Source of the DNA: an uncultured Elusimicrobium sp.
GTDB taxonomy: Bacteria > Elusimicrobiota > Elusimicrobia > Elusimicrobiales > Elusimicrobiaceae
Length of the DNA: 32,288 nt
Assembly (NCBI GenBank): GCA_902766765.1
Contig: CACXER010000003.1
Coordinates: forward strand, 1-32,288
Direction: 5' to 3'
The notes beneath the pieces were generated by a model that had not been told where the DNA came from, made no database searches, and saw only the letters and a list, made by a program, of their open reading frames with translations. The position numbers and the translations under genes were made by a program. Below are positions 782-23,575 of the stretch, in pieces. The first letter of the stretch is position 1; each line of letters opens with the position of its first letter.

Positions 782-1564
782 ATGACAGAAAAAAAAGATA
801 CAAAAGTAGTAGAAAAATTAAAACATACCGGCGCGGTAACGGTGCCGTCCTTGTTTACGCTGGGTAATTTGGCGTGCGGATTTTTCTCTATTTTATCCGC
901 GGCCAAAGGGAACTTTGCCAATGCCGGGTGGCTGATTTTGTTTGCCATGATTTTTGATATGTTTGACGGACGCATGGCGCGGCTATTTGGTACGGAAAGC
1001 AGTTTCGGTGTTGAAATGGATTCACTCGCAGATGCAGTTTCGTTCTGCACGGCCCCGGCGATGCTCATGTACTTTTTCGTATTGCATACCCAACCTACTT
1101 GGGGCGCACCGATTGCGTGTGTGTACGCGTGTTTTGGCGTATTACGTTTGGCCAAGTTTAATGCCATGGCCTACGCGGGAGAAAGTTCCAAACAGTATTT
1201 CAGCGGGCTTCCTACTCCGGCAGCGGCGGGTATTTTGGCTTCGTTTGCTATTTCGTACAGCATTATGGAGGGGACGTCCGGCGGACGCAATATCCAACTG
1301 CTTAGCGCCTACTTGCCGCACATTTACAATTTTGTATGGTTTGTGATGTTGGTGCTGTCTTTGCTGATGGTATCCAATGTGCCGTATGCGGCTTTCAAAG
1401 CCAAACGCGACAAAATCCGTGGCCCGTGGGTGCTGCTTTTGGTGGTATTCCTCGTGGTGATGACGATTAAATTCCCGCACAACATGGTGTTTATTGTATT
1501 TTCGCTCTATGTGATTTTAGGGCTATTAGCGGTGTTGTGGCGCGCGTTTAGAAGAATTAAATAA
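782..1564 (+). CDS. pssA: CDP-diacylglycerol--serine O-phosphatidyltransferase
   Basis: Condenses CDP-diacylglycerol with serine to give phosphatidylserine, the substrate of the Psd encoded just upstream. The protein (260 residues from the chosen start) is a multi-pass membrane enzyme with the CDP-alcohol phosphotransferase signature: DG..AR, then G...D...D, seen as FDGRMARLFG followed by FGVEMDSLAD. These aspartates bind the metal and the CDP head group in the family. The ATG at 782 is preferred because it follows the psd stop by two bases; an in-frame ATG at 770 would overlap psd by ten bases and add only four residues. Hydrophobic helices continue to the C terminus. The transcript ends at the hairpin at 1591-1622. 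Confidence 0.93.
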   Translation: MTEKKDTKVVEKLKHTGAVTVPSLFTLGNLACGFFSILSAAKGNFANAGWLILFAMIFDMFDGRMARLFGTESSFGVEMDSLADAVSFCTAPAMLMYFFVLHTQPTWGAPIACVYACFGVLRLAKFNAMAYAGESSKQYFSGLPTPAAAGILASFAISYSIMEGTSGGRNIQLLSAYLPHIYNFVWFVMLVLSLLMVSNVPYAAFKAKRDKIRGPWVLLLVVFLVVMTIKFPHNMVFIVFSLYVILGLLAVLWRAFRRIK

Positions 1565-1706: not shown

Positions 1707-2831
1707 TTACAATCGTAACCACTTAAATTCAAAAAACACAACCACACTAAAAATCAATACCGGCCCCCATCCGGCCAGGAAAGGGCTTAAATATCCGTTC
1801 TCACCAATAGAAGTACACATGGAAATCAGCCACCAGAACGTAAACGCAATGACCATGGACGCGATAATGTTTAGGATTTTACTCTTTCGCCGTGTGCTAA
1901 TGGCAAACGGCATCCCCAGTAGACACATGACAATCGTGGCGAACGGGGCGGCCAGTTTAGCCTGGCGTTGGGTTTCGGCCGAGTAAGACGCCAAGCCGGT
2001 GCGTTTGTGGAATTTGATGCGTTTGGTAAGGTCCCGTATGCTCATTACATCCTCATCTACCCGCCCTACCGACATTTGGTTGGGGCGGATATCTACGGGA
2101 GAGACCCGGGTTTCAAACGGCTCATCTTTGGCATCGGTGTTGTTATTGGTATTATTAAAGGTGCGGTGTAGCCCGTTGTGAAAGACCCACCGTTTCTCGG
2201 CGGTGTCCCATTTCATCGTGTCGGCTACAATTTGCTCGGAAATATCCCACGCATCATTGTAAGTATCCAGGGAAATTTTTGTCATCGTGCCGGAAGTCAA
2301 ATCTACCGTTTTGGCATATAACATTTGTTTGGGGGAAATTTTAATTAGCACGTCATTTTCCAAATACTGGTTATAATTCGGATGCGGTTTGAGGCGCGTA
2401 TAATAGATATAATCGGCTTTGACATTTAGGGGGGGAACTATAAATTCTTGCATCAACATAGTGCACGCACAGACCAGTAAAATGCACCCGATAATAGGTT
2501 TAAATAATTCGCGCGGGGCAAATCCGCCCGCCACGCATGCGGTCCATTCACCGTTAGATACCATTTCGGAGATCACAGAAATCGCCCCCAATAGGCACGC
2601 TACCGGCATGATAGTTGTCAGCCAGTTGGGAAATGTTACTAGCGAATAAGAGAGCACGTCGGCCAGTGTAGTAACCCCGTTGCCCAGGTTTTTCATTTTT
2701 TCAAAGGTGTCACCCAACACGACCAGTGCGGCAAACACGCCCATGGCAAACAAGAACGGCCCCCAAAATTTGCGGGCAATATAGCCAAACAGCAAACGCG
2801 CTCCTACTAAATGTTTAACCGTTTTTTCCAT
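1707..2831 (-). CDS. lptG: LPS export permease, LptG-like (YjgP/YjgQ family)
   Basis: Inner-membrane permease of the Lpt machine that extracts lipopolysaccharide from the membrane and passes it to the periplasmic bridge. The 374-residue protein has the family plan: N-terminal transmembrane segments, a large soluble periplasmic beta domain in the middle (roughly residues 120-270), then C-terminal membrane segments near residues 290-370. The ATG at 2831 is preferred over the GTG at 2873: the latter would overlap lptF by 67 bases and add a charged extension unlike the family. An AGGAG lies 13 bases upstream, rather far. It overlaps the end of lptF by 25 bases, indicating translational coupling. 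Which member is LptF and which LptG is taken from the usual gene order; the LptB ATPase gene is not in the window. Confidence 0.85.
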   Translation of the reverse strand: MEKTVKHLVGARLLFGYIARKFWGPFLFAMGVFAALVVLGDTFEKMKNLGNGVTTLADVLSYSLVTFPNWLTTIMPVACLLGAISVISEMVSNGEWTACVAGGFAPRELFKPIIGCILLVCACTMLMQEFIVPPLNVKADYIYYTRLKPHPNYNQYLENDVLIKISPKQMLYAKTVDLTSGTMTKISLDTYNDAWDISEQIVADTMKWDTAEKRWVFHNGLHRTFNNTNNNTDAKDEPFETRVSPVDIRPNQMSVGRVDEDVMSIRDLTKRIKFHKRTGLASYSAETQRQAKLAAPFATIVMCLLGMPFAISTRRKSKILNIIASMVIAFTFWWLISMCTSIGENGYLSPFLAGWGPVLIFSVVVFFEFKWLRL

Positions 2832-3901
2832 AAATAATAGCCGGCTCCTATGCCTACTACAATCGGCAGCCACGGCCCGGGATACGAAATCCAGGTATAT
2901 TTTTTACCGAGAGACAACCCTAATGTCATTAGCAAATAAAACGCGAAAATAATAACTACACTATAAAACATGCCCCACCCTTTGTTGGTGCGTTTGCCCA
3001 GTGAAAACCCAATCGGGCAACTGACAAACAATAAAATAAGCGGCGAAAGGGCCAGCACATTACGCATACTGATAGCGGTGCGGAATTCGTTGGCCAGTTT
3101 AGGAGTTAGCGGATCCTTGCGTAAACTACGCAGTAGTTTGGTGGTAGTCATTTCTCCTACGCGAAGCCGCCGCGTGTGGGCTTTGGTAAGTGAAATACTC
3201 ATGGTGTAATCGTCAAAATTGGCCGCGATGATGGATGACGGATCTTTGGTGGAAATACGTTGCATTTGTCCGTCTTTAAGTTGCAAGCCGATGGCCGTAT
3301 CGGTCAGTACAATGCGTCCGGAAGAGGCATTGACTTTGGTGCTTAGCGCGCCGGAATCGCTTTTGTTGACTAGGTGAATTAGATTAGCCGTGTTAGTTAG
3401 TTTGTCTAAATCTTCCAAATACAAATCCCAATCGCCTAAGTTGATGAATGTTTTTGGCTCCAGGGTAACTTTGGTAATTTTGCTGTACGCTTCTTCGCGC
3501 TTGTTGATAAATTTTTTGTAACTTCTTGGGGTAAGCCAGTTGCCCATTACAAACAGTAAGGCTGATAAGGCAAGCGCGCATACGAACATGGGCCGGACAA
3601 TTTCTTTAAACGAAAATCCTGCCGCGCGCAAGGCAATCAGTTCGCCTTGTTCGCTCATGTTGGTAAGTGTAAGTAACACTGCAATTTGAAAGGCCATCGG
3701 CGCACTTAAACAAAACACGTCCGGCAAAATGTTGAGTAACGATGATACAATCCACCCGAAACTTGTGCCGTAGGTCATCGCCATTTTGAGCACGCGGATA
3801 AAATGGTTCATGAAAATAACAAAGGTTAGTACACCCACCACGCCGGTAAAAAAGGTGAGTAAACTTTTAGCGATATATCGGGTGAAAATGGAAATACGCA
3901 T
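2807..3901 (-). CDS. lptF: LPS export permease, LptF-like (YjgP/YjgQ family)
   Basis: First gene of the lptFG pair; together with LptG and the ATPase LptB it forms the inner-membrane LPS extractor. The 364-residue protein starts with a hydrophobic segment after MRISIFTRYIAK, has further membrane segments up to about residue 120, a periplasmic beta-rich domain (about 130-265), and three hydrophobic segments at the C terminus. The sequence LIALRAAGFSFKEIVRP around residues 85-105 is the conserved cytoplasmic coupling region of the family. It is transcribed away from the SprA-like gene, with a 109-base shared upstream region. Its presence argues for an LPS-bearing outer membrane. Confidence 0.87.
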   Translation of the reverse strand: MRISIFTRYIAKSLLTFFTGVVGVLTFVIFMNHFIRVLKMAMTYGTSFGWIVSSLLNILPDVFCLSAPMAFQIAVLLTLTNMSEQGELIALRAAGFSFKEIVRPMFVCALALSALLFVMGNWLTPRSYKKFINKREEAYSKITKVTLEPKTFINLGDWDLYLEDLDKLTNTANLIHLVNKSDSGALSTKVNASSGRIVLTDTAIGLQLKDGQMQRISTKDPSSIIAANFDDYTMSISLTKAHTRRLRVGEMTTTKLLRSLRKDPLTPKLANEFRTAISMRNVLALSPLILLFVSCPIGFSLGKRTNKGWGMFYSVVIIFAFYLLMTLGLSLGKKYTWISYPGPWLPIVVGIGAGYYLWKKRLNI

Positions 3902-4010: not shown

Positions 4011-7000
4011 ATGAAAATACTGCGCTTGTTTGTTGCCTTGGTGTTGTGCCTGCAACTGGGTTTTTCGCCGGATGTATGGGCGCAATCCTTGCCGTACAGT
4101 TTGGTAGATAAGGACCAATACGCCATTTTTGAGGAAGAGCAAGCCGCCAAAGAGGACGCCGCCCTGGCTTTGGAAGATCCGCCGGACGACGCGGCCCTTT
4201 TGCACTATTCCGATGCATTTTGGCGCCAGGCCGTTACCTCGGTAGAAGGCGCGTACAAGTTAGATAACGAGCCGGAACCCATCCCCGATTTAACGCTGTT
4301 AAATCCCACGCTTTCTTTGCCGCTCTACGGTACCAGTATTGCCCTAACGGGGCGTTATGTGCTCGGTTTTAAAACGGCGGCTAAAAAATATAAAGAACCT
4401 TCCAAAAGTGCCAGCACATCCAACACCAACCAACGCAATTTGGAAATGACCCAACAAATGCAACTTAAAATGCAGGGTAAAATTATGGACCGCGTGTTTG
4501 TAGATATTGACTACGATGATCAACGCGAGGAAGAGAAAACATTGTCTGTGGCCTATCGTGGTAAACCGGGTGAAATTGTACAGGAAGCGGAGTTCGGGGA
4601 TATCAACTTGGCTTTGCCGCAAACGGATTTAATTGCTTATCAAAAACAACTGTTCGGCGCGAAGATGCATTTGCAATATAAAAACGCCAATTTGTACGTG
4701 ATTGGGTCGCAAACTAAAGGTACCAGCAAACAAAAGCAATTCGTGGGTTCCAGCGTGCAGGAAATCGTTTCGCTGGCCGACACCAGTTATTTGCGCCGTA
4801 CCTACTATGATTTAACTTTTGGCGGGAACATCCACGGCGATCCTCAACTCCAACCTGATGCCTATAACGATTGGAAAAATAATGTTATTTCCATTTCTCC
4901 CGGCAGCGAAGAAATTTATTTAAACAGCAATACTACTTCGCGCACGTTTGTCCCGATAGAAAAAACCGCCACTGATTATTTGGGTACCCAACTTTATACA
5001 GCCCAATTTGAACTTTTAACTCGCGGGGTGGACTATACGATAGATTACGCGCGCGGTATCGTAACGTTTAAACGCACTATTACCGCGCAAAGCGTCATCG
5101 CGGTAGATTACCGCAATGCGCAAGGCCAATTACTTAGCGAAATGGGTACTACGCCCAATACTATTAAACTAATTAAAACCGAAAACGATAAACCGTTTGA
5201 AGGAACCGCGACCGAGACGGCCAATAAATTAGAAATGAAAACATTCTACCGTATCGGTGCACAAAAAATTACGGAAGATAACGGAAAGGGTAATTTTGTC
5301 CTTACTTTGTTAGATGCTAACGGCCAAGATGCCGGCGGTAGTGCTTCCCCACAACAAGTATACCCCACCACTATTACCATGGATTTTGACCAAGGTATTT
5401 TCGAACTTAAAAACCGCATGACCGACGATATCGGTTTGTATAATGCCACGCCGGTTTCGGCGCGTAACCGCACGTTTAAAATTCAATATGAGTCTACCGT
5501 TAAAACGTATTTTATTGAATCCGATATTGTGGTGCAGTCCGAACAAGTGAAATTAAACGGCCGCCCGCTTGTGCGTAACAATGATTATTATATTGACTAC
5601 ACTTCCGGTTTTATTACCTTCTACAGAGGCGAAGAAATTACCGAAAATGCCGTTATTGATATATCCTACGATACGGTAACGGGCACTAGTTCCAACAACT
5701 CGGTACTTGGGGGGCGGTTGGATTATAAATTGTTTGATAAAATCGTCATGGGAGCGACGATGATTCAGGAAGGAGGCGAAAAGCCGGCTGTTGTGCCGCA
5801 AGTGGGAGCATACAGTAAGGAATTACTCGTTTACGGGGCCGATGTGAAAGGGCGGGATATCAAACTGGGAGATAGAGTCAACGTAGATTTCAGCGCCGAA
5901 GCCGCCCGTAGCCAGAAAAAACAAAATATGTTCGGTTATGCCATGATAGACAGCATGAACGAAACAAGTGAGCAAGTGGGCGGGTCTATGATTTTTAGGG
6001 ATTGGCTCATTGCATCCAACCCCAACAATAAACCGAACTTTTTAGATGCTATTCGGTGGGATAGCCAAGATTTACCCGCCTTAGAAATTAACCCGCACGC
6101 CATTGCCAACGCCAACGATAAACAACAAGTGCTCGTACTCAATTACGACTTTACCCAAGGGGTAGATTTTGACGGCCGCGATGAAGTTTCTATCGTTTAT
6201 CCGCTGAGCAAAAGCGGCCTGGATTTATCTTCCAAGACGACCTTTGAACTAACGATTTTAGGTGAAACCGGTGGCCCGCAAGTTAACTTTACATTTGGGA
6301 ATATTAGCGAAGATTCCGATGGCAGCGGCGGCATGACTACCCAATGTGGTAGCGGCGTACCCAAGACGGAAGATATTTATTGTCGCAACAGTTTGGCCCC
6401 CAACGAAGATGTCGGCTGGTTGTACGCCAACCCGGACGGTACCGAACAGCGCTACAATCCGTTTGTTTACAACCTTTACAATCCCGAGTCGCAACCGAAC
6501 GGTCGTATTGATACGCAAGACCTAAACGGAAACGGAAAATTTGATACGGAAAATATTCCAACGCAGGGCAACTTCGGGTTTGGCGGCGCGAATATTGACG
6601 GAATGAGTGGCGGACATACGGCCGATAATACAACTTGGCAAACCTATTCCATGCCGTTCCAAATTACCAATAAATCGGAGTGGACGGCAGTGCGTCATTT
6701 GCGTATCACACTTAAAAAAGGTACTAAACTCAAAGGGCAAATTAAAATTGCCAACATCGCCCTGTCGGGAACTTCCTGGAACACGGAGGCCGACCCGAAC
6801 GCTAATCCTGCTGAAATGTCCGTGTCCGGTGTCAACAATGTAGACGATATTACGTATGAACCGATTTTCAATTCTCCCGGTGACGGCCAAACCGTATTTA
6901 ATTACCTGTATGGTTCTATCCAAAATTACCGCAGTACATTGGATTCCGCTAACGTCTTGGACCAAGCACTCCGCTTGAAATTTAATACTACAAGTTTACC

Positions 7001-9353
7001 CGTTGTGATAGATGATCCGTCTTCCCCGGTACTGACCGGTGAGCGGTATGCCAACCGTAATTTCAGAAGTATGGATTTTTCCCAACACCGCGAGTTCCGG
7101 TTTCTGTTACATAGTAAAATGGCTAATGCGGGTTCAGAATTTTTCCTAAAAGTCGGTACACAAACCAATTACGATAAGATCATCGTGCCGCTTGATTTTG
7201 ACGGTTGGCGTTTGATTTCCGTGAAAATGGTTGATACGAACGGCGACGGTATCCCCGATTCGTTTACCAATGTTTCTAACCCGGATTACGGCATTAAAAT
7301 AGTGAATTACCGAGCTCCGGGGGGGCTGCTCAATTTCCGTGAAATCAGTTTGATTATATCGGGGATGCAGCGCCCGCAAGGAGCATCCGGCAGTGCGGGT
7401 GAAGTGTGGCTGAATGTCATTCACTTAGCCGACGCCATTACACTTACCGGCGATGCCTATAAGGGCGATGTAACGGTAACATGGGATGGCTGGGGAAGTG
7501 CCAGTGCCAAGTATAAACACCAGGATAGCAACTTTGAAACACCCCTTACCGTTGCCAAAAATCAAGAAACGACCGAAGAAGAATACCTGTTGAAAGTGGA
7601 CCGCATTAAAGAATTTCCGATGTCGGCCAAATTTACCCGCAGTGAAGTAACGACGCCGCTCATTACCGATACTACCAATTACAACACGGTCTCGCTGTTA
7701 GACAAAGGCAAAGTAGAGCGGCAAAATGCTACCGTGCGCGGGGATTTTATCAAGGAAAATTTACCCAAAATCGGGTTGGAATATACGTTAGACCGCACGG
7801 ATTATCAACTTATGAAGCGTAAAGACGATGCGCAAACGTACGGGGCGACGCTGTCGCACTCGGTGGGTTCGTTTAAAAACATTTCCGCCGGCTATTACCT
7901 GACCAATTCTTCCGTGGACTATGACCGCGTGCGCCACGAAGAATCTACCACGTATTATAATACCGACGAAGATACCCATAAAATGAATATGAAGTTTACC
8001 TATCAACCCACGCAGAATTTTAACTTGATCCCATCGTATAGTTTAAGTAAGAGCAGCGAAGACCGCCTCCATTACGGCGACAACAAAATCCACTACCCCA
8101 AAGCCATGACGCAACGTGCCGGGCTGAGTAGTACGTGGCGTATTGCCAAGTGGTTGGTTCCGTCGGCCAGTTACAACATCACTACCGTAGAGAACAATAA
8201 CCTTACCGCAAAAACTCCTACCAAAGCCGGAACGGATGTGACGGTGGGCGTAGGGGATGTGAAAACTATTACACGTAACGCGGACGGAAGCGTTTCGCTT
8301 ACCATCAATGGGAATGATTTACTGCCACAAAGTAAACTGTTTAGTACGCTGGTGGTGTCATCGGGATACCGTATCCAGGATGCAGATGCGTGGAGTGATG
8401 TGGACCGTGATTTTGATTCGCGCAAAGAACTGTGGATTCGCGGCGACTCGTTTAAGCAGGTCGGTCGTTACGGCTACCGGCGCAATATGACGTTGCGTGA
8501 TACGTTTACGTCCACCCAACGTTGGAATCCGCTTTCCAAATATGAATTCACCGGTGTAGCGGCTCCGCTTAAAACGGTATCCGTTATCAATAATTTCAGT
8601 AAGACCTTGCAGAAAAATGATCAAACCGGTACGATGTATAATTCTACCAGCATGACCTTGCCGGATTTGACGTTCTCTATTTCCGATCTGGAAAAATTCT
8701 TCTATGCCGGCAAATGGTTTGCCAACAGTAATTTGAAATTGCGTTACAGTTGGGTGGAACAAACGAATATCGGTACCGATGAACAAGAGACTATCCAATA
8801 TGGGGCGGATTTACGCTTTATGTTCCTCAATTATTTTGATACGGTGCTTACCGGACAACGCAAAGAGTCCAATAAAGACGACTTGCGTTTACGTACCAGT
8901 TTGGAGCGGCAACGAGAAAATAATTTATCGGCTCAAACATCCTTTTACATTAAATCCTTACGCTTGACGCCTAAACTGACTTATGTTACCTACGATAAAT
9001 GGCTTGTTAACGGACAGGTCAGCCAAAGCACCAAAGAAATGGTGCCCAGTCTTAACTTGCGTTGGGATTTCAACTTGCCCCACGGCTTAAAATTACCGTT
9101 TATCAACCGGATTTACTCCGCCACCAACCGCGTGATTTGGAATACGAATATCAGTTTCACGGATAAACGTTCCCAGGTGGAAGTCATTGATAATTACCAA
9201 AAATACGATGTAACCACGTCGTTGGATTACGAATTTTCGCAAAATTTACGTTTCACACTTTCCGGCGGGCTGACCGTGTTGGAGCACGCGTATGTAAAGA
9301 CGGAAGATTACACCGCGTATAACATCGCCGCGAACATGACGATACAATTTTAA
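4011..9353 (+). CDS. sprA: SprA-like giant outer-membrane beta-barrel protein
   Basis: A 1780-residue exported protein. Signal peptide residues 1-24 (hydrophobic stretch, VWA then Q). Residues about 150-270 resemble the N-terminal repeat of SprA, the outer-membrane channel of type IX secretion: V.IDYDDQ at 164-171, then YRGKPGEIVQEAEFGDINL with the GDI/GNV-type turn, a LIAYQKQLFGAKM segment and a following SQTKGTSKQK stretch. The rest is beta-rich with many alternating aromatic/polar strands and ends in the Phe-terminated strand (TIQF) typical of barrels inserted by BamA. Two Ca-binding-like loops occur, DLNGNGKFD and DTNGDGIPD. F. johnsoniae SprA is about 2400 residues, so this is shorter. 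No PorV, plug, PorK-N or C-terminal sorting-domain cargo is visible in the window, so whether it secretes proteins or does something else is open. comF follows four bases after the stop. Confidence 0.72.
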   Translation: MKILRLFVALVLCLQLGFSPDVWAQSLPYSLVDKDQYAIFEEEQAAKEDAALALEDPPDDAALLHYSDAFWRQAVTSVEGAYKLDNEPEPIPDLTLLNPTLSLPLYGTSIALTGRYVLGFKTAAKKYKEPSKSASTSNTNQRNLEMTQQMQLKMQGKIMDRVFVDIDYDDQREEEKTLSVAYRGKPGEIVQEAEFGDINLALPQTDLIAYQKQLFGAKMHLQYKNANLYVIGSQTKGTSKQKQFVGSSVQEIVSLADTSYLRRTYYDLTFGGNIHGDPQLQPDAYNDWKNNVISISPGSEEIYLNSNTTSRTFVPIEKTATDYLGTQLYTAQFELLTRGVDYTIDYARGIVTFKRTITAQSVIAVDYRNAQGQLLSEMGTTPNTIKLIKTENDKPFEGTATETANKLEMKTFYRIGAQKITEDNGKGNFVLTLLDANGQDAGGSASPQQVYPTTITMDFDQGIFELKNRMTDDIGLYNATPVSARNRTFKIQYESTVKTYFIESDIVVQSEQVKLNGRPLVRNNDYYIDYTSGFITFYRGEEITENAVIDISYDTVTGTSSNNSVLGGRLDYKLFDKIVMGATMIQEGGEKPAVVPQVGAYSKELLVYGADVKGRDIKLGDRVNVDFSAEAARSQKKQNMFGYAMIDSMNETSEQVGGSMIFRDWLIASNPNNKPNFLDAIRWDSQDLPALEINPHAIANANDKQQVLVLNYDFTQGVDFDGRDEVSIVYPLSKSGLDLSSKTTFELTILGETGGPQVNFTFGNISEDSDGSGGMTTQCGSGVPKTEDIYCRNSLAPNEDVGWLYANPDGTEQRYNPFVYNLYNPESQPNGRIDTQDLNGNGKFDTENIPTQGNFGFGGANIDGMSGGHTADNTTWQTYSMPFQITNKSEWTAVRHLRITLKKGTKLKGQIKIANIALSGTSWNTEADPNANPAEMSVSGVNNVDDITYEPIFNSPGDGQTVFNYLYGSIQNYRSTLDSANVLDQALRLKFNTTSLPVVIDDPSSPVLTGERYANRNFRSMDFSQHREFRFLLHSKMANAGSEFFLKVGTQTNYDKIIVPLDFDGWRLISVKMVDTNGDGIPDSFTNVSNPDYGIKIVNYRAPGGLLNFREISLIISGMQRPQGASGSAGEVWLNVIHLADAITLTGDAYKGDVTVTWDGWGSASAKYKHQDSNFETPLTVAKNQETTEEEYLLKVDRIKEFPMSAKFTRSEVTTPLITDTTNYNTVSLLDKGKVERQNATVRGDFIKENLPKIGLEYTLDRTDYQLMKRKDDAQTYGATLSHSVGSFKNISAGYYLTNSSVDYDRVRHEESTTYYNTDEDTHKMNMKFTYQPTQNFNLIPSYSLSKSSEDRLHYGDNKIHYPKAMTQRAGLSSTWRIAKWLVPSASYNITTVENNNLTAKTPTKAGTDVTVGVGDVKTITRNADGSVSLTINGNDLLPQSKLFSTLVVSSGYRIQDADAWSDVDRDFDSRKELWIRGDSFKQVGRYGYRRNMTLRDTFTSTQRWNPLSKYEFTGVAAPLKTVSVINNFSKTLQKNDQTGTMYNSTSMTLPDLTFSISDLEKFFYAGKWFANSNLKLRYSWVEQTNIGTDEQETIQYGADLRFMFLNYFDTVLTGQRKESNKDDLRLRTSLERQRENNLSAQTSFYIKSLRLTPKLTYVTYDKWLVNGQVSQSTKEMVPSLNLRWDFNLPHGLKLPFINRIYSATNRVIWNTNISFTDKRSQVEVIDNYQKYDVTTSLDYEFSQNLRFTLSGGLTVLEHAYVKTEDYTAYNIAANMTIQF

Positions 9354-9357
9354 CCGG

Positions 9358-10083
9358 ATGAAAAATAAATTGTTACAAGGTGTATTACACTTCTTTTTCC
9401 CGCGTACATGCGTTTGTTGCGGGCGGGATTTATCTTACCGGGCCACCTCGTATTTATGTCAAGATTGTACCGCCCAGCTTACGCGTCCCGGACCGCTGTT
9501 TTGTGTGCGTTGCGGGGTCAATTTGCCTTCGGGCGGAGCGCATTGTTTTGCGTGCCGTGGCAGTAAAGCCAAAGCGTACAAGTGTAGTTTGATCCGTTCG
9601 GCATGGATATTTAATACGCCCTCGCGCTCGCTTGTGCACGGACTTAAATACGCGTTTGAAGATTATTTGGCCGAGGATATGGGCCTTCAAATGGCACGCA
9701 ATTTTGCCTATTATCCGGAACTGGTTACGGCAGAATTAGTGATCCCGGTGCCGTTATTTCCTTCCCGGCAACGCTCGCGCGGATATAACCAAAGTGAACG
9801 GTTGGCGGACAGTTTTTCCCATCATACCGGTTTGCCACTACTTTCGGATGCACTCGCGCGTACGCGCGACACGGTCAGCCAAACTACGCTTGGGCGTACG
9901 GCGCGTTTGTCTAATATGGTGGGTGCTTTTTCTTGCGTGCGGCCGCAAGCCGTTCGTGGGAAAGTTGTTTTGCTGATAGATGATGTGGCAACTACCGGCG
10001 CCACGTTAGAAGGTTGCGCCCGGGCACTTAAACTGGCCGGGGCCAAACGGGTGTTTGCGTACACCTATGCGCGGGAAAATTAA
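9358..10083 (+). CDS. comF: ComF-family phosphoribosyltransferase-like protein
   Basis: Member of the ComF family, needed for DNA uptake in naturally competent bacteria; the biochemical role is unsettled. The 241-residue protein has two N-terminal zinc knuckles (CVCC near 18-21 with CQDC 34-37, and CVRC 49-52 with CFAC 63-66), then a phosphoribosyltransferase fold with GYNQSERLA and the PRPP-binding loop LLIDDVATTGATLEG near the C terminus. It begins four bases after the SprA-like gene and is probably co-transcribed with it. The link with competence fits the prepilin genes in this window, because type IV pili serve DNA uptake in many bacteria, but that link is an inference. Confidence 0.9.
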   Translation: MKNKLLQGVLHFFFPRTCVCCGRDLSYRATSYLCQDCTAQLTRPGPLFCVRCGVNLPSGGAHCFACRGSKAKAYKCSLIRSAWIFNTPSRSLVHGLKYAFEDYLAEDMGLQMARNFAYYPELVTAELVIPVPLFPSRQRSRGYNQSERLADSFSHHTGLPLLSDALARTRDTVSQTTLGRTARLSNMVGAFSCVRPQAVRGKVVLLIDDVATTGATLEGCARALKLAGAKRVFAYTYAREN

Positions 10084-10087
10084 CATC

Positions 10088-10792
10088 TCACTTTTTCTCT
10101 TTTGGGTGTACTAATTGATGCCCATGGAAACTAAAATGAGCATTACGACACACAATTAGGTGCTCCCAAACAGAAATATCAAAAACGTTAGCAGCTTTTT
10201 CCAGTTGTTCCGTCCAGGCCACATCGGCTGCGGAAGGGCGCGGATCGCCGGAGGGATGGTTGTGAATAATGATCAACCCCGTGGCTTTAATGTTGAGGGC
10301 CATTTCTACAATTTTGCGTGGTTCCAAGTTGATTTCGGAAATAGCCCCACCAAAGAAACGGCGTGTGTTAAGTAGCGTCCACCCCGTAGAAAGAAACATT
10401 ACTTCCACAAATTCTTCGTGCTTCCCGGCCAGTGAATAACGGCAATAATCCAAAATATCATCTAACGCACCCACTTTAATAGTTTGGGATAACTGGTCTT
10501 TGGCATAGCGGCTGAACGCATCACGCACTAGTACAAGCAGTTGGGCGGCACGCGGCCCGATACCCGGCACTTCGCACAAGGCGGCCTCATCGGCATCTAA
10601 TACGGCGGATAAGGAGCCGAACTGTTTAAGTAAATTCCACGCAAGAGACTTTGTATCTTTGCGCGTGATGGCATAGGTAAGCAGTAATTCCAGAAATTCG
10701 TGATCTAATAGAGAGTCCAAACCGGCTGATTCTACACGTGCACGCAAACGGGCGCGATGGCCGAGGTGGGAAGGTTTAGGGGAGGTAGCCAT
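10088..10792 (-). CDS. radC: RadC family JAMM/MPN-domain protein
   Basis: The 234-residue protein matches the RadC (DUF2466) family: N-terminal helix-hairpin-helix region (EVPGIGPRAAQLL, residues 74-86) and a C-terminal JAMM metal site with HNHPSGD at 177-183 and Asp190. The family was once tied to DNA repair, but its role is not established; the JAMM motif suggests a metalloprotease-like fold. Full length for the family. The ATG is preceded by AAGAAAGAGAA. It converges on comF with only four bases between the stop codons and no terminator between them. Confidence 0.93.
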   Translation of the reverse strand: MATSPKPSHLGHRARLRARVESAGLDSLLDHEFLELLLTYAITRKDTKSLAWNLLKQFGSLSAVLDADEAALCEVPGIGPRAAQLLVLVRDAFSRYAKDQLSQTIKVGALDDILDYCRYSLAGKHEEFVEVMFLSTGWTLLNTRRFFGGAISEINLEPRKIVEMALNIKATGLIIIHNHPSGDPRPSAADVAWTEQLEKAANVFDISVWEHLIVCRNAHFSFHGHQLVHPKEKK

Positions 10793-10827
10793 AATTCTAA
10801 TTCTCTTTCTTATTGTACTGCTTTTAA

Positions 10828-10836
10828 TGCTACAAT
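10828..10836 (+). promoter_or_regulatory. extended -10 promoter for lpdA
   Basis: TGCTACAAT, an extended -10 element 36 bases before the lpdA ATG. No good -35 at the right distance, as is usual for extended -10 promoters. The ribosome binding site GGGGGAG lies just before the ATG. Confidence 0.6.
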
Positions 10837-10872
10837 GGTAATAAAGTTATAAGGTGTTAGGCAAGGGGGAGT

Positions 10873-12240
10873 ATGAAAAAGATTATCATTATTGGTGGCG
10901 GCCCGGCGGGTTATCCGGCAGCGTTGGAGGCGGCCGCACTCGGGGCGGAAGTAACCCTGGTGGAAAAGAATAAACTGGGCGGAGTATGTTTGAATTGCGG
11001 GTGTATACCCTCCAAATCGTTTTTAGATGCGGCACATCGTTTTCAGGCGGCATTTTCCGCCGTAGGGTTTAGCGCAGAGGGCGCGCAAACGGCAGCCGAA
11101 CAATTATTCCAAGCCCGCGATTTTGAGCAAGTCAAAAAACGTCAGCAAGTAGCCACCCAAAAACTAACGCAAGGGATTTCCTTTTTACTTAAGAAAGCCA
11201 ACGTAACGGTACTTACGGGCGAGGCGTCTTTTGTAGATGAGCATACGGTAGAAGTGCAAACAGAACAAGGCAAGCAAAAACTGTCCTTTGACGGGGTGAT
11301 TATTGCCACCGGTTCGCAAGCGTTTTATCCGCCGGCGTTGGAAGCGTTGCGCGGGAAAGTGTACGATAATGCCAATTTCTTTGAAATGGAGAAATTGCCC
11401 GCGTCTATGGCTGTTATCGGCGGCGGCGTTATCGGGTGTGAGATGGCTGATTTCTTGCAATCCTTTGGCGTGGAAGTACATTTGATTGAAATGCAACCGC
11501 GGTTGTTGCCACTGGAAGATGAGGGCGTTTCGCGCGTGTTATTCCAAGCATTTACCAAACGGAAAATCAATCTTCATTTGGGCGTAAGTGCGACGTCGGT
11601 GTCGCAAACGCAAGACGGGTTTGAACTGACGCTTTCCGACGGGGGAAAAATCAAAACCCAGCAAGTGCTTGCCGCTATCGGGCGCACGGTAGATGTAAGT
11701 GCCCTGCATTTGGAACGGGTGGGTATTTCTGCCACGCGCAAAGGGATACAAGTAAATCCGCAAACCCTACAAGTTAAAGACAATATCTACGCGGCCGGTG
11801 ACGTAACGGGCTTACTGCAACTGGCGCACGCGGCCACGCGCCAAGGGCAAGTGGCGGCTCGCAATTTATGCGGGGTGTCTGCGGTGTATCACAACGAGCG
11901 GGTGCCGCACGCGGTTTACACCACGCCGGAAATTTCCTCGGTGGGTTTATCTGCCGCGCAAGCACAAGCGCAAGGTATAGAAGTAAAAGCACATAAATCG
12001 TTTTTCTTAGCTAACGGACGGGCTGTGGCGCAAGGTCAAACGGAAGGCTATGTGGAGTGGTTAAGCGATGCCAAAACGGGGAAACTTCTCGGTGCCGTTT
12101 GCGTAGGGGCCCAAGCGTCGGAACTTATCCATATTGCGGCGGTAGCGCTGGAGGCGCAATTTACACTTTCTCAACTCAAAGACGTCGTTTTTGCTCACCC
12201 GACATTTGCCGAAACGTGGTCGGAGGCGTTACATAAATGA
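10873..12240 (+). CDS. lpdA: dihydrolipoyl dehydrogenase (E3)
   Basis: FAD-dependent disulfide oxidoreductase that reoxidises lipoyl groups of 2-oxo acid dehydrogenase or glycine cleavage complexes using NAD. In the 455-residue protein: FAD-binding GGGPAGY near residue 8, redox-active cysteines Cys39 and Cys44 in GGVCLNCGCIPSK, NAD-binding AVIGGGVIGCEMADF around 180, the second FAD motif IYAAGDVTG near 308-316, and the C-terminal interface HPT..E (HPTFAE) bearing the active-site His/Glu pair. An unusual extra Cys42 lies between the redox pair. No E1 or E2 gene is adjacent, so its partner complex lies elsewhere. It shares a four-base ATGA overlap with the next gene. Confidence 0.92.
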   Translation: MKKIIIIGGGPAGYPAALEAAALGAEVTLVEKNKLGGVCLNCGCIPSKSFLDAAHRFQAAFSAVGFSAEGAQTAAEQLFQARDFEQVKKRQQVATQKLTQGISFLLKKANVTVLTGEASFVDEHTVEVQTEQGKQKLSFDGVIIATGSQAFYPPALEALRGKVYDNANFFEMEKLPASMAVIGGGVIGCEMADFLQSFGVEVHLIEMQPRLLPLEDEGVSRVLFQAFTKRKINLHLGVSATSVSQTQDGFELTLSDGGKIKTQQVLAAIGRTVDVSALHLERVGISATRKGIQVNPQTLQVKDNIYAAGDVTGLLQLAHAATRQGQVAARNLCGVSAVYHNERVPHAVYTTPEISSVGLSAAQAQAQGIEVKAHKSFFLANGRAVAQGQTEGYVEWLSDAKTGKLLGAVCVGAQASELIHIAAVALEAQFTLSQLKDVVFAHPTFAETWSEALHK

Positions 12241-12950
12241 AATCGTTTTGTGTGGTGCTTGTCCGTCCGCGTGATCCTAATAATATTGGTGCCGCCGCGC
12301 GTGCAATGGCGAATTTCGGATTGTCTGATTTGCGCGTGGTGGAACCGTTTGCCGTGGCGTGGCGTGAAGCCGTCAGCGCGGTCGGTGCGGAAGATATTAT
12401 GCATAGCGCCGTGCAGTACCAAACATTGGATGAGGCACTGGCGGATACGTCTTTTTCGCTGGCGGCCACGGCCCTTCGCAATCGGCATTTAGAGCAGGAA
12501 ATTGTTACACTTCCCGTCTTAAATAAACGCTTGGAAAAGGCGCCGGAAGGAAAAATCGCCCTGGTGTTTGGTAATGAAAAAACGGGACTTTCCGGCGAGG
12601 ATATTGAGCGGTGTGTGGCGGTATTAAATATTCCTACCGTGTCCAAGCAACCCTCCATCAATTTGGCGCAAGCCGTTATTTTGACGTGTTACGAACTTTC
12701 CCGCCGCGCGGATTTTGTGCCTTTGCGTACAGCCGGATCCCATATTGCTGCTGCACCAACCGACGCGCAAAAAGAAATTTTGGTGGACAAACTATTTACG
12801 CTTTGCGAAAAAGCGGACCTCCGCCCCGATTTAACGTGCGACCAACGCAAAGCATTTTTGCGCCGCATGGTAGGCAATTTATCCTTAAACGAAGTGCAAC
12901 TCTTTTTTGCCAAATCACTCGCCGAACGATTAGCCCAACGGGTAAAATAG
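12237..12950 (+). CDS. trmJ: SPOUT RNA 2'-O-methyltransferase, TrmJ/TrmH group
   Basis: SAM-dependent ribose methyltransferase of the SPOUT class, most likely acting on tRNA position 32 (TrmJ). The 237-residue protein shows the three family motifs: NIGAAARAM near 17-25, the knot glycine segment FGNEKTGLS near 104-112, and the SAM-loop region IPTVSKQPSINLAQA near 130-145. The start overlaps the lpdA stop (ATGA), which implies coupling. The C-terminal about 80 residues form a helical extension, as in TrmJ. An exact substrate cannot be read from the sequence; other TrmH relatives modify rRNA. It converges with a prepilin gene five bases away. Confidence 0.85.
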   Translation: MKSFCVVLVRPRDPNNIGAAARAMANFGLSDLRVVEPFAVAWREAVSAVGAEDIMHSAVQYQTLDEALADTSFSLAATALRNRHLEQEIVTLPVLNKRLEKAPEGKIALVFGNEKTGLSGEDIERCVAVLNIPTVSKQPSINLAQAVILTCYELSRRADFVPLRTAGSHIAAAPTDAQKEILVDKLFTLCEKADLRPDLTCDQRKAFLRRMVGNLSLNEVQLFFAKSLAERLAQRVK

Positions 12951-12955
12951 ATAGA

Positions 12956-13483
12956 TTATTGGTCTATGGGATACACGGTGTATCCATAAGTCAATCCTTG
13001 CAGGGTTGGCACACCGCCCGTAAAACCGGAATTCCCTGTTAGTGAGCGGCATAATTTGATTGCGTTGGCATCCGTCTCTTTGGCGTAACAGTATCGTTTG
13101 TTTGTAGTGAAATTATCTTGATATACAAAAGAAGCGTCGCGCCGTCCGCAAGAAACAGAATTGTTTTGGCTTCCTACTGCCGAATTGATACAACAGAAAA
13201 CATCTTCATTTTGAGCGCAAGAACTGTTTTGATTGATTGAAGTAACGGACATTCCTCCGGGTGCATCGACCGCTAATTCGTCAAAACTGCTGGGATAAGT
13301 TCCATTTGCCAAATGGTAAGTTTGTACAGCGGTAGAATAGGCATGTGTGAGCGTTTTTAGGTTGGAAAAGCGCGCTTTGTTGACGGCGAGCGTATATTGC
13401 GGCATGGCCACTGCGGCAAGTATGCCGATAATGAGTACCACCACTAATAATTCTATAAGCGTAAATGCTTGTTTGTTTTTCAT
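12956..13483 (-). CDS. type IV prepilin-like protein A (orphan)
   Basis: A 175-residue prepilin-like protein. Short leader MKNKQA, processing before Phe7, and the conserved hydrophobic helix [19 protein letters not shown] with the mature Glu5 (Glu11). The residue at -1 is Ala6, not the usual Gly. The globular part is rich in cysteine (10) and polar residues and has the block TYHLANGTYPSSFDEL seen in related pilins. The ATG at 13483 is chosen because AGGAG stands five bases upstream; the longer frame to 13537 runs through the promoter. Transcribed alone from a near-consensus promoter (13517-13545), convergent with trmJ and divergent from prepilin B. No assembly genes nearby, so it may be a minor pilin or pseudopilin of a system encoded elsewhere. 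Confidence 0.88.
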   Translation of the reverse strand: MKNKQAFTLIELLVVVLIIGILAAVAMPQYTLAVNKARFSNLKTLTHAYSTAVQTYHLANGTYPSSFDELAVDAPGGMSVTSINQNSSCAQNEDVFCCINSAVGSQNNSVSCGRRDASFVYQDNFTTNKRYCYAKETDANAIKLCRSLTGNSGFTGGVPTLQGLTYGYTVYPIDQ

Positions 13484-13516
13484 AAAATCTCCTGGTTGCT
13501 TTTTTACGGATACTTC

Positions 13517-13545
13517 ATTATTGTTCTTTTTTTTCAATTTGTCAA
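13517..13545 (-). promoter_or_regulatory. sigma-70 promoter of prepilin A with T/A-tract spacer
   Basis: Read on the minus strand: TTGACA (13545-13540), a 17-base spacer containing eight consecutive A, then AATAAT (13522-13517). Perfect -35 hexamer. Closely matches the promoter of prepilin C. Confidence 0.75.
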
Positions 13546-13567
13546 GTTTTTAAAAGGCACAAAAAAC

Positions 13568-13595
13568 TTGCATTTATTTTTTTTTTTGCTAAACT
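13568..13595 (+). promoter_or_regulatory. promoter of prepilin B with 11-T spacer
   Basis: TTGCAT (13568-13573), a 16-base spacer containing 11 consecutive T (13577-13587) and TGC, then TAAACT (13590-13595). Same layout as the promoter of prepilin D. A strong ribosome binding site GGAGGGG follows at 13617-13623. Confidence 0.7.
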
Positions 13596-13628
13596 CTACG
13601 TATACTTATTTTATATGGAGGGGTATAT

Positions 13629-14183
13629 ATGAAAAATAAAAGTGGTTTGTCGGGCCGTTTGAATGCAAAAGGATTCACACTCATTGAACTTTTAGTGGTG
13701 GTACTCATTATCGGTATTTTGGCGTCTATAGCGTTACCGCAATATAAGGTGGCTGTATTGAAAGCCAAATATGCACGTATGATTACGGTGGCTGAAAGTT
13801 TTAAGTTGGCCCAGGAACGGTACTATATGGCCAATAACGCGTACGCCCCCAGTATTTGGGATGTGGATATAGATATAACGGGTGAGCAGGTAACGGAACC
13901 TTTTAGTAATATGGATGCTTATAAAGTGGGCGAGTTTTATGTGTTTGCTTCCCCGACGCAAATTGCTACGTATTGGGTGGACAAAGATAACAGTTTGTAT
14001 ATGATGTATAACTTGTGCTACGATAACGCTTACCTGCATTGTGCTTGGGGGGAGGCACATTCATTATGTCGGGCCTATTCGGGTAGCGGTGCGGCGGGAA
14101 AAACCGTATGCCGCAGTTTGCCCGGGGCATTCAATTGTGAGGAAAAGACGTCTAAGGGGTATTATTCTTGCCAAGGAATGTAA
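13629..14183 (+). CDS. type IV prepilin-like protein B (orphan)
   Basis: A 184-residue prepilin with a 15-residue leader ending in Lys-Gly15, cleavage before Phe16, and the helix [24 protein letters not shown] with Glu20 as mature Glu5. After the helix come AQERYYMANNAYAPS and DVDIDITG, then Cys-containing C-terminal blocks (SLCRAYSG and TVCRSLPG). GGAGGGG stands six bases before the ATG. Divergent from prepilin A across a 145-base gap holding both promoters; rpmE follows 82 bases later from its own promoter. The RBS region is nearly identical to that of prepilin D, pointing to a duplicated cassette. The specific role (major or minor pilin, DNA uptake, secretion) cannot be read. Confidence 0.9.
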   Translation: MKNKSGLSGRLNAKGFTLIELLVVVLIIGILASIALPQYKVAVLKAKYARMITVAESFKLAQERYYMANNAYAPSIWDVDIDITGEQVTEPFSNMDAYKVGEFYVFASPTQIATYWVDKDNSLYMMYNLCYDNAYLHCAWGEAHSLCRAYSGSGAAGKTVCRSLPGAFNCEEKTSKGYYSCQGM

Positions 14184-14209
14184 TTTTCTTTTTATTTTCC
14201 ATTACAATT

Positions 14210-14218
14210 TGCTATAAT
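14210..14218 (+). promoter_or_regulatory. extended -10 promoter for rpmE
   Basis: TGCTATAAT, a perfect TATAAT with the extended TGC; start expected near 14225, giving a leader of about 40 bases before the rpmE ATG, with GAGG near 14255. Confidence 0.65.
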
Positions 14219-14265
14219 AATCAAGAAGTCCTTTTTGGGCTGAACCATTTTTTAGAGGAAAAACT

Positions 14266-14619
14266 ATGAAAGAAAAAATTCATCCGACGTACGACTTCGT
14301 AGAAGCCGTCTGCGCGTGCGGGAACAAATTTATGACCCGCTCTACCGCTAAAACCTTAAAATTGGACATTTGCTCCGCTTGCCATCCGTTCTTTACGGGG
14401 AAACAAAAACTCTTGGATACGGAAGGTATGGTAGACAAATTCAATAAACGCTATGCCAAAACCGAAGGCAAAACGTTGGTCCGCAAACCCAAAACCGAAG
14501 TAAAAGCCAAAGCCAAATTGGCCCGCAAACCGGCAGCCGCCGCCAAAAAAACGGCCGCTAAAAAACCGGCAAAAAAAGCCGCGGCCAAAAAAGAAACTAA
14601 GGCCGAAACCGCTAAATAG
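14266..14619 (+). CDS. rpmE: 50S ribosomal protein L31, with long basic C-terminal tail
   Basis: Ribosomal protein bL31 of the zinc-binding (C+) type: IHPTY near the start, CAC at 16-18 and CSAC at 36-39 supply four Cys ligands, and PFFTGKQ and DKFNKRY follow as in E. coli L31. The normal protein is about 70 residues; this one is 117 because of a tail of about 45 residues made of Lys, Ala and Pro repeats ([16 protein letters not shown]). The tail resembles histone H1-like low-complexity extensions and would be disordered and RNA-binding. Own promoter upstream, strong terminator downstream, so it is a single-gene unit. Confidence 0.95.
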
Positions 14620-14634
14620 CGTCAGGTTTTTAAA

Positions 14635-14665
14635 AGAGCAGACACTTCCGGTGTCTGCTCTTTTT
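14635..14665 (+). terminator. intrinsic terminator after rpmE
   Basis: Perfect 11-bp stem (14635-14645 with 14651-14661), five-base loop TTCCG, then TTTTT. It separates rpmE from the prfA operon. Confidence 0.95.
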
Positions 14666-14688
14666 CTATGTAAACGACAGGGGACAGT

Positions 14689-15747
14689 ATGGATACATCT
14701 AAATACGTTGCTGAATTTCAACAGTTGGAAAAAGACCTTTCCAGCGGCAATTTGTCCGCGGCGGACTTGGCGGCCAAAGCCAAACGCCACGCTTATTTAA
14801 AGCCGATTATTGAAAAGGAACGGGAAGTGGCCGCCGTGGAAAAATCCATTGCCGATGACCGTGCGATGATTGAAGCGGGGGAAGATAAAGAACTTGTCAA
14901 AATGGCCGCCGAAGAACTGGCCGAGTTGGAAGAAAAACTGCCCGTTTTGCAAAAGCAGTTGCGTATTTTGGTAATTCCGCCCGATCCCAATGATTCCAAA
15001 AACATTTATTTGGAAATCCGCCCCGGTGCCGGTGGCGAAGAATCCGCATTGTTTGCCGCCGAACTCTTGCGCGTATATCAACATTTCGCGCAAACAAAGG
15101 GCTGGGGTACGGAACTATTGGAATATACCCCTACCGGACTGAAAGGTTGTAAATACGTCAGTATGTTTATCAAGGGTGACGGCGCCTATTCGTGGCTTCG
15201 TATGGAAGCAGGCACGCACCGCGTGCAACGCGTGCCGGATACGGAAACCTCCGGCCGTGTACACACGTCTACCGTAACGGTTGCCATTATGCCGGAAGCC
15301 GAAGAGATTGATATTCAAATCCGTCCCGAAGATTTAGAAATGGAAACGTGCCGCTCCGGTGGAGCCGGCGGACAGAACGTCAACAAAGTGGAAACCGCCG
15401 TACGTATTTTACACAAACCTACCGGCATAGTCGTTTCCTGCCGCGAAGAACGTCACCAGGGTGCCAACCGCGAGAAAGCTATGGCCATGCTGCGCGCCAA
15501 ACTCTATCAAATAGAGGAAGAAAAACGTAATAAGGAAATTTACGACGAGCGCAAAAGCCAAGTGGGTACCGGCGACCGTTCCGAAAAAATTCGCACGTAT
15601 AACTTTCCGCAGAGCCGCGTAACCGACCACCGCACCGATATTTCCTACCATAACATTATGGAAATTATGGCCGGAAACATTGAGCCCGTGCTAGAAGATT
15701 TGCGCGCGTGGCGTGTGGAACAAAAACTTAAAAACTTGCAACTCTAA
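14689..15747 (+). CDS. prfA: peptide chain release factor 1
   Basis: Class I release factor that reads UAA and UAG and triggers hydrolysis of the finished peptide. The 352-residue protein carries the GGQ motif at 227-229 within [14 protein letters not shown], whose Gln is the substrate of PrmC encoded next. The stop-codon recognition loop reads RVPDTE (PDT at 183-185), the P-x-T form that marks RF1 rather than the SPF of RF2. Full length for the family. An AGGGGACAGT stretch precedes the ATG. The stop codon overlaps the prmC start by one base (TAATG). Confidence 0.97.
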
Positions 15748-16583
15748 TGCAACTGGCCGAAATTCTTTCTCAAGCGGTTATCCGTCTTACCCGGTCCGGC
15801 TCCGATGAGCCGCAAGCCAATGCTGAGTGGTTACTGGCGTGCGTGTTAAACGTTACGCGCACGTGGCTACTGGCCCACGGCGATTATGAATTATCCGAAA
15901 ACGAACTTGCCTTATACGAAAAATACCTCACGCGCAAGGCCGCCGGGGAGCCGCTTTCCCACATTGTAGGTTATCAGCCGTTTGACGGTATGGACATTAT
16001 CGTGTCGCCCGACGTCCTGACTCCTCGGCCGGAAACGGAAGAACTGGTGGAAATTGTTTCTGCGTTATACGATAAAAAAGGGACGTATACCTTTTTGGAT
16101 ATGTGCACAGGTAGTGGGTGTATTGCGTGTGCCTTGGCACGGCGTTTTGCCCGTGCGCGGGTACTGGGAGTAGATATTAGTGAAAAGGCGCTCGCTATTG
16201 CGCACGAAAATATCAAAAAATTCCGTCTGCATGAGCGCGTGCAACTGATGCAAAGTAATTTGTGGGAAAGTGTCACAGGCACGTTTGATTTAATTATTTC
16301 CAATCCCCCTTATATTCCTTCGCAAATTGTAGATACACTTACGCAAGAAGTATTGCGTGAGCCGCGGCTGGCCTTGGATGGCGGCGCGGACGGCTTGGAT
16401 ATTGTGCGTCCTTTATGCTCGGTAGCGGCGGATTATTTGAACCCCGGCGGGTGGCTTGCGTTGGAACTGTGCAAAGGGCAAGCCGCGGCCGTAGCGCGGG
16501 GGTTGCAAGAAATCGGCTGGCAAGCCGTCGTCAAAAAAGATATAGTGGGAATAGAGCGTTTTGTGCTGGCGCAAAAAATTTAA
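15747..16583 (+). CDS. prmC: release factor glutamine methyltransferase
   Basis: Methylates the Gln of the GGQ motif in release factors using SAM. The 278-residue protein has the N-terminal helical domain (1-80), the SAM-binding motif LDMCTGSGCIACALA near 117-131, an acidic DIS after the second strand, and the catalytic NPPY at 186-189 in SNPPYIPS. Start overlaps the prfA stop, the classic prfA-prmC arrangement, so enzyme and substrate are co-translated. murA follows after a 17-base gap. Confidence 0.96.
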   Translation: MQLAEILSQAVIRLTRSGSDEPQANAEWLLACVLNVTRTWLLAHGDYELSENELALYEKYLTRKAAGEPLSHIVGYQPFDGMDIIVSPDVLTPRPETEELVEIVSALYDKKGTYTFLDMCTGSGCIACALARRFARARVLGVDISEKALAIAHENIKKFRLHERVQLMQSNLWESVTGTFDLIISNPPYIPSQIVDTLTQEVLREPRLALDGGADGLDIVRPLCSVAADYLNPGGWLALELCKGQAAAVARGLQEIGWQAVVKKDIVGIERFVLAQKI

Positions 16584-23080: not shown

Positions 23081-23575
23081 ATGCAAAAGAAAAGTGTTTT
23101 TAAGAGTTGTTTAGACGCCAACGCATTTACGCTCATTGAACTGCTCGTTGTTGTTCTCATCATTGGTATTTTGGCGGCGGTGGCCTTGCCGCAATATAAT
23201 TTAGCCGTTGCCAAAGCGCGGGTGAATAGATTATTACCTCTTATGAAAAGTATTGAAAACGCACAAGAAGTATATAAAATAGCCAACGGCACTTACGCCG
23301 CCGATTTTACACTGCTTGATATTGACATGCCCGCGGGCGCGGTTACCACGACACCGCAAAGTATTGACTATTCAAACTTTGTTTGTGGCTTATATACAAA
23401 TTCATTGCTTTGTACAGACAGACAAGATTCCGTTGCTTTGGAGAGTGTGTATAATTCTCACATGATTTGTTGGGCACAAAATAGTACTTCGTCACAAAGT
23501 ATTTGCAAAGCTGTTTGCAAAGTAAACACATTGTACACAACGGGATCGCCCCATTGTGATTTTGCACACCATTAA
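23081..23575 (+). CDS. type IV prepilin-like protein D (orphan)
   Basis: A 164-residue prepilin: 15-residue leader ending in Asn-Ala15, cleavage before Phe16, helix [24 protein letters not shown] with Glu20 as mature Glu5. Then AQEVYKIANGTYAADF and LDIDMPAG as in prepilin C, and a short Cys-containing end with MICWAQNS and SICKAVCKV. The ribosome binding site GGAGGG and the following ATATATATG nearly repeat those of prepilin B. Its stop overlaps the stop of ruvC on the other strand by four bases. It sits between an envelope operon and the yebC-ruvC operon with no pilus genes near. Confidence 0.9.
   Translation: MQKKSVFKSCLDANAFTLIELLVVVLIIGILAAVALPQYNLAVAKARVNRLLPLMKSIENAQEVYKIANGTYAADFTLLDIDMPAGAVTTTPQSIDYSNFVCGLYTNSLLCTDRQDSVALESVYNSHMICWAQNSTSSQSICKAVCKVNTLYTTGSPHCDFAHH

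Follow-up and report, generated by a model that had tools for sequence, protein, structure and literature searches.

The closest described counterpart of the protein analysed here is SprA, the type IX secretion channel of F. johnsoniae. This barrel of 36 strands opens laterally; in its pore, the C-terminal domain (CTD) of the substrate binds the loops of PorV, and the release of the complex of carrier and substrate requires energy (PMC10994853). A single PorV serves all type A CTDs of this organism and is probably recycled (PMC12618676). For type B substrates, the carrier is a cognate SprF/PorP protein which is encoded directly downstream and is made in stoichiometric amount; each such carrier is dedicated to its own cargo and may anchor it at the surface (PMC12618676, PMC9143113). 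Coupling of SprF and PorG to GldK occurs through a tail of the Cys-pair type near the C-terminus (PMC12635249). With TXSScan, the type IX secretion system (T9SS) was found in Bacteroidetes only (PMC4793230), and a paper of 2024 reported its genes to be absent outside the FCB phyla (PMC11285876). Our search, which covered the open-access literature, found no report of SprA or of a T9SS in Elusimicrobiota; the mention of 'type IX' in one Elusimicrobia paper (PMC7031533) is the title of a reference.

The window, i.e. the whole stretch of 32,288 nucleotides analysed here, contains a long open reading frame (Table 1) whose product had been described in the earlier note as SprA-like from its N-terminal motifs, signal peptide and Phe-terminated end. 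All of these features are present. IDYDDQ, YRGKPGEIVQEAEFGDINL and LIAYQKQLFGAK, which are SprA-type motifs, lie at residues ~166–217, the signal peptide (MKILRLFVALVLCLQLGFSPDVWAQ) is of the Sec type and the terminal Phe is conserved in 119 of 119 near-full-length relatives. The SprA/Sov profile TIGR04189 matches the window protein with E=3.3e-31 and 107.5 bits, which is below its curated NCBIfam equivalog cut-off of 200 bits, and it also matches 22 of 22 relatives (best 2e-44). Single-sequence phmmer of the window protein against the PDB found nothing, and a family profile was required. With a profile of 22 members, SprA is the only match in the PDB (E=1e-20, three colinear stretches), while a 73-member profile covering residues 30–1200 finds it with E 1.4e-34 in four colinear stretches. 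Colinear sequence homology to SprA thus spans the N-terminal two thirds of the protein, and the profile search favours SprA over every other family. A profile made from the C-terminal half alone found neither a relative nor SprA by sequence, and the assignment of that half therefore rests on the fold. Matches to phage tail-tube, DUF2460 and CBM_11 families were dropped, being short or weak compared with SprA; CBM-like jelly-rolls are seen inside modelled inserts of the protein.

Table 1. Position of the SprA-like gene, its matching stretches and other genes of the window.
Feature	Position	Strand	Remarks
Second LptF/LptG-family permease	1707..2873	-	Conserved neighbourhood
LptF/LptG-family LPS export permease	2807..3901	-	Divergent neighbour of sprA, conserved synteny
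SprA-like giant outer-membrane channel gene	4011..9353	+	ATG start, 1780 aa, Sec-type signal peptide, C-terminal Phe
N-terminal SprA-matching stretch	4335..4808	+	Residues 109-266 = TIGR04189 positions 98-254; F. johnsoniae SprA 148-291
Second SprA-matching stretch	5439..5846	+	Residues ~477-612 = TIGR04189 positions 567-711; SprA 701-779
C-terminal barrel region (predicted)	7395..9344	+	Residues 1129-1778, ~28 consecutive long strands in model, Phe signal at end
Colinear stretches, 22-member profile	query 138-278, 520-598, 863-1178		SprA 148-291, 701-779, 1198-1562
ComF-family phosphoribosyltransferase	9358..10083	+	Directly downstream of sprA, conserved synteny
Pilin-like gene	12956-13537	-	N-terminal methylation motif
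Pilin-like gene	13629-14183	+	N-terminal methylation motif
Pilin-like gene	23081-23575	+	N-terminal methylation motif

For the fold, the window protein was modelled as two overlapping parts, residues 600–1780 (pLDDT 88.1) and residues 30–1200 (pLDDT 82.8). Comparison with the F. johnsoniae barrel supports the SprA-like reading, as Foldseek places four F. johnsoniae SprA entries at ranks 1–4 for both parts, with values of 1e-35 to 1e-28 for residues 600–1780 (next match 1e-6) and 1e-47 to 1e-36 for residues 30–1200 (next match 4e-6). VIA-align superposes the former on SprA 792–2401 over 1007 residues (Z 16.8, rmsd 6.5 Å) and the latter on SprA 132–1570 over 888 residues (Z 18.2, rmsd 7.2 Å). 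Further long strands are present upstream of the C-terminal run of strands, in a count taken on two separately modelled parts. TonB-dependent receptors also match the C-terminal half with Z ~17; these matches cover only ~400 residues at 12–14 Å rmsd and are therefore taken as generic barrels. Our models thus predict that the window protein has the SprA fold, a giant beta-barrel.

We conclude that the product of this reading frame is a true, distant homologue of SprA which lies outside the present TIGR04189 equivalog. It resembles SprA/Sov (F. johnsoniae 6h3i, 8gl6 and 8gl8; TIGR04189) in its giant barrel ending in Phe, in the colinear N-terminal homology and in a fold match over nearly the full length. 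In contrast to SprA, it is shorter (1780 vs 2403 aa), shares 11–18% identity with it in the structural alignment, remains below the equivalog cut-off, lacks a match to Pfam SprA_N (PF14349, which is silent in the control genomes too) and occurs in Elusimicrobiota. In a sub-lineage of the window's genus (L039, L163–L166, L183 and relatives), the SprA-like protein is ~110 aa longer and carries an insertion close to the position of residue 1122 in the window protein.

The host is a gut member of the Elusimicrobiaceae in the phylum Elusimicrobiota. Named relatives are uncultured Elusimicrobium, Elusimicrobiaceae and Ca. Avelusimicrobium, many of them from rumen or gut samples, which bears out the setting outside Bacteroidota suggested earlier; more distant named relatives are groundwater Elusimicrobia. 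The gene is found in 61 of 61 close relatives and in 213 of 248 Elusimicrobiota genomes (168 of the 177 of good quality), nearly always as a single copy. Among the absences listed, most belong to one family and chiefly to a genus with genomes of 0.5–1.4 Mb, which we infer to be Endomicrobium-like.

The earlier note had stated that no other type IX gene is present. This holds within the window and fails at the scale of the genome, where PorV-family genes and a pair of sorting-domain-like cargo and PorV are found. A search across the phylum likewise contradicts the absence. The PorV-family profile (PorV_fam, NF033709) matches in 36 of 36 Elusimicrobiota genomes tested, above the curated cut-off in 29, with 3–5 matches per genome in the window's genus and close genera and 10–45 in most others. 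The type A CTD profile TIGR04183 matches in 26 of 31 genomes, above the cut-off in 25, with a maximum of 39 per genome. The two kinds of genes are tightly arranged: in four genomes of three lineages, for which complete match lists were used, a PorV-family gene follows within 500 bp downstream on the same strand for 57 of 91 sorting-domain matches, where ~0.23 would be expected, and it stands upstream of or on the opposite strand to these matches in 0 and 0 cases. The gene is therefore not a lone relic. Its wide distribution, the PorV genes, the cargo-PorV pair of its own genome and the tens of pairs per genome elsewhere in the phylum argue for a core gene, which might still descend from a form that preceded type IX, as the earlier note proposed.

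In the window's own genome, the pair is located on contig C20, where a gene for a 1737-aa protein stands directly before a PorV-family gene (L136, 7142–8146; 87.3 bits), behind which Flp/Tad pilus genes are located; other genera of the family share this arrangement. The C-terminal region of the 1737-aa protein matches PorZ (E 7.6e-6), and three stretches of it are FlgD Ig-like. No TIGR04183 match reaches the threshold in the window's own genus, and the CTD likeness of its one clear cargo is seen through PorZ and FlgD_ig only, which makes for a thinner case in this genus than in the free-living lineages. The PorV gene of gut Elusimicrobiaceae directly adjoins the Flp/Tad pilus locus (L136 (G000 C20), 7142–16001; L138–L141; L143), which contains RcpC/CpaB, a secretin, a T2SSE fused to a ParA-like domain and two T2SSF, and a cargo gene stands next to PorV wherever the contig reaches that far.

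These observations make it likely, in our judgement, that Elusimicrobiota possess a reduced T9SS-like system with private cargo-carrier pairs, in which the window protein is the outer-membrane translocon. As in the SprA/Sov systems, PorV-family partners and type-A CTD proteins are present in the same genomes, and the combination of PorV_fam barrels with TIGR04183-type domains is that of the Bacteroidota PorV shuttle and type A route. However, whereas F. johnsoniae uses one PorV for this route, each Elusimicrobiota genome has 3–45 PorV-family matches, and many of these immediately follow one cargo gene. The position of the carrier gene directly 3' of the cargo gene is instead like that of the type B pair SprB-SprF, from which the Elusimicrobiota pairs differ in having a type-A-like signal and a PorV-family barrel. 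Cargo-carrier pairs in Bacteroidota concern type B cargo only, while in Elusimicrobiota they are formed with type-A-like cargo.

From the type A signal, the PorV-family carriers and the type B pairing, we propose that each carrier would leave with its own cargo and anchor it. Judging from the signal peptides, Sec would carry cargo and carrier over the inner membrane, and BAM would insert the channel, for which the terminal Phe also speaks. By analogy with SprA-PorV of F. johnsoniae, the PorV-family barrel encoded directly 3' of the cargo gene would then dock at a putative lateral opening of the SprA-like channel. The C-terminal Ig-like sorting domain may bind this carrier in the pore, and both would exit sideways into the outer membrane. 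Because most cargo and carrier genes are paired, the carrier probably remains bound as a surface anchor and is not recycled, comparable to the SprB-SprF type B pairs. One SprA channel would in this way serve many private cargo-carrier pairs, and a powered recycling of the carrier would be unnecessary.

For the GldKLMN motor and ring, the GldM (TIGR03517) and GldL (TIGR03513) profiles match in 0 of 31 Elusimicrobiota genomes, a result which lacks a positive control and for which the control genomes are silent too. It may be argued that the system is a complete canonical T9SS powered as in F. johnsoniae, in which GldKLMN, SprE and the attachment parts are present and have diverged beyond the reach of Bacteroidota profiles. 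Even the channel attains no more than 107 bits where the cut-off is 200 bits, and other T9SS parts could therefore be missed; in addition, F. johnsoniae needs energy for the release of carrier and cargo (PMC10994853). However, the SprA, PorV and CTD profiles do match in most of the same 31 genomes, and a CxC, CC or CxxC pair near the C-terminus, the tail type through which coupling to GldK occurs (PMC12635249), is found in 0 of 76 PorV-family ORFs. We therefore regard a complete canonical system as unlikely. A tentative possibility is that type IX secretion persists in Elusimicrobiota in an early form without a motor, consisting of SprA, a C-terminal signal and a private, unrecycled PorV, to which GldKLMN would be a later Bacteroidota addition enabling one recycled PorV to serve all type A cargo.

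The nature of the cargo domains also has to be considered. The TIGR04183 profile resembles FlgD Ig domains and also matches the genomes of Deinobacterium and Bacteroides ihuae, two controls without SprA. The CTDs might accordingly be ordinary FlgD-type Ig domains and the PorV-family proteins FadL-like porins, paired for surface anchoring only and unrelated to the SprA-like channel, and it fits this reading that FlgD_ig matches the same kind of domains, with three matching stretches in one protein. However, the domains stand at the extreme C-terminus of the cargo, directly 5' of the PorV gene, with tails such as WDGKN..G..VASGVY......KK..KIAV.K read immediately before it. They score above the T9SS cut-off, and the C-termini of several cargo proteins also match the PorU, PorZ or M6i T9SS profiles; the signal of the PorU and PorZ profiles is seen only as such C-terminal matches within cargo. 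The cargo itself is of surface type and includes subtilase, M6 protease, beta-helix, Kelch and PQQ/NHL propeller proteins. In one genome (G046, contig C35, ~268907–270527) a sorting-domain match is part of a 14,446-aa open frame that immediately precedes a PorV-family gene, and other giant open frames of this kind measure 5,900–7,300 aa; these giant proteins may be cargo of the SprA-PorV route.

A further argument against unrelated Ig domains and porins comes from the joint loss of SprA and PorV within one reduced genus (g41). Of its SprA-negative genomes, 11 of 12 are without a PorV-family match and the twelfth has one marginal fragment, whereas 7 of 7 SprA-positive genomes have 2–6 matches (Fisher p 1.6e-4, which is indicative only as the genomes are related and reduced and relatedness was uncorrected). 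An exception to the co-occurrence is G068, a genome 99% complete with two PorV-family matches and no SprA detected, and several fragmented SprA-negative genomes outside this genus retain PorV matches. On balance, we consider it improbable that the domains and barrels are unrelated to the channel.

The order lptG-lptF, divergent from sprA-comF, recurs at most of 27 diverse loci. This conservation over most of the phylum would agree with an outer-membrane or LPS biogenesis channel tied to lptFG in place of a protein exporter. On the other hand, the PorV expansion, the CTD-PorV pairing, the co-loss and an M6-CTD gene beside sprA fit an exporter, and the fold match to SprA extends over nearly the whole protein while LptD is just a weak generic barrel match, which makes an LPS channel very unlikely. 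The M6-type protease-family gene with a type-A-like tail is present in the lptFG-sprA neighbourhood at 10 loci of deep lineages (in one member scanned, the CTD scores 30.9 bits against a cut-off of 23), and such genes were noted at L236–L250, cluster 3. As a matter of speculation, this protein might be a PorU-like processing enzyme.

Identity of the SprA-like proteins falls to 28% inside Elusimicrobiota. In a tree of these proteins, which has some low deep supports and no Bacteroidota SprA as outgroup, the tested host families stay together; as the tree follows host families, the gene is old in the phylum, of which it is a core gene. Although horizontal movement of T9SS components has been reported within Bacteroidetes (PMC7323717), a recent transfer of T9SS parts from Bacteroidota is hardly credible, since the one conserved neighbourhood, the single copy in nearly every genome, the deep divergence and the tree point to old vertical descent. 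A transfer in the distant past may nevertheless have taken place.

Our preferred reading thus remains that of a SprA-like translocon serving private cargo-carrier pairs. SprA homology and fold, conservation, PorV expansion, CTDs, pairing and co-loss together lead us to place the Elusimicrobiota system provisionally within type IX secretion, as a new form of it, until the motor has been clarified and experiments are at hand. The near-universal presence of a SprA-PorV-CTD system in another phylum would shift the origin of the translocon, and Elusimicrobiota would gain a main route for surface proteins. The system would also serve as a natural test case for the question of which T9SS components are indispensable and for that of the energy source.
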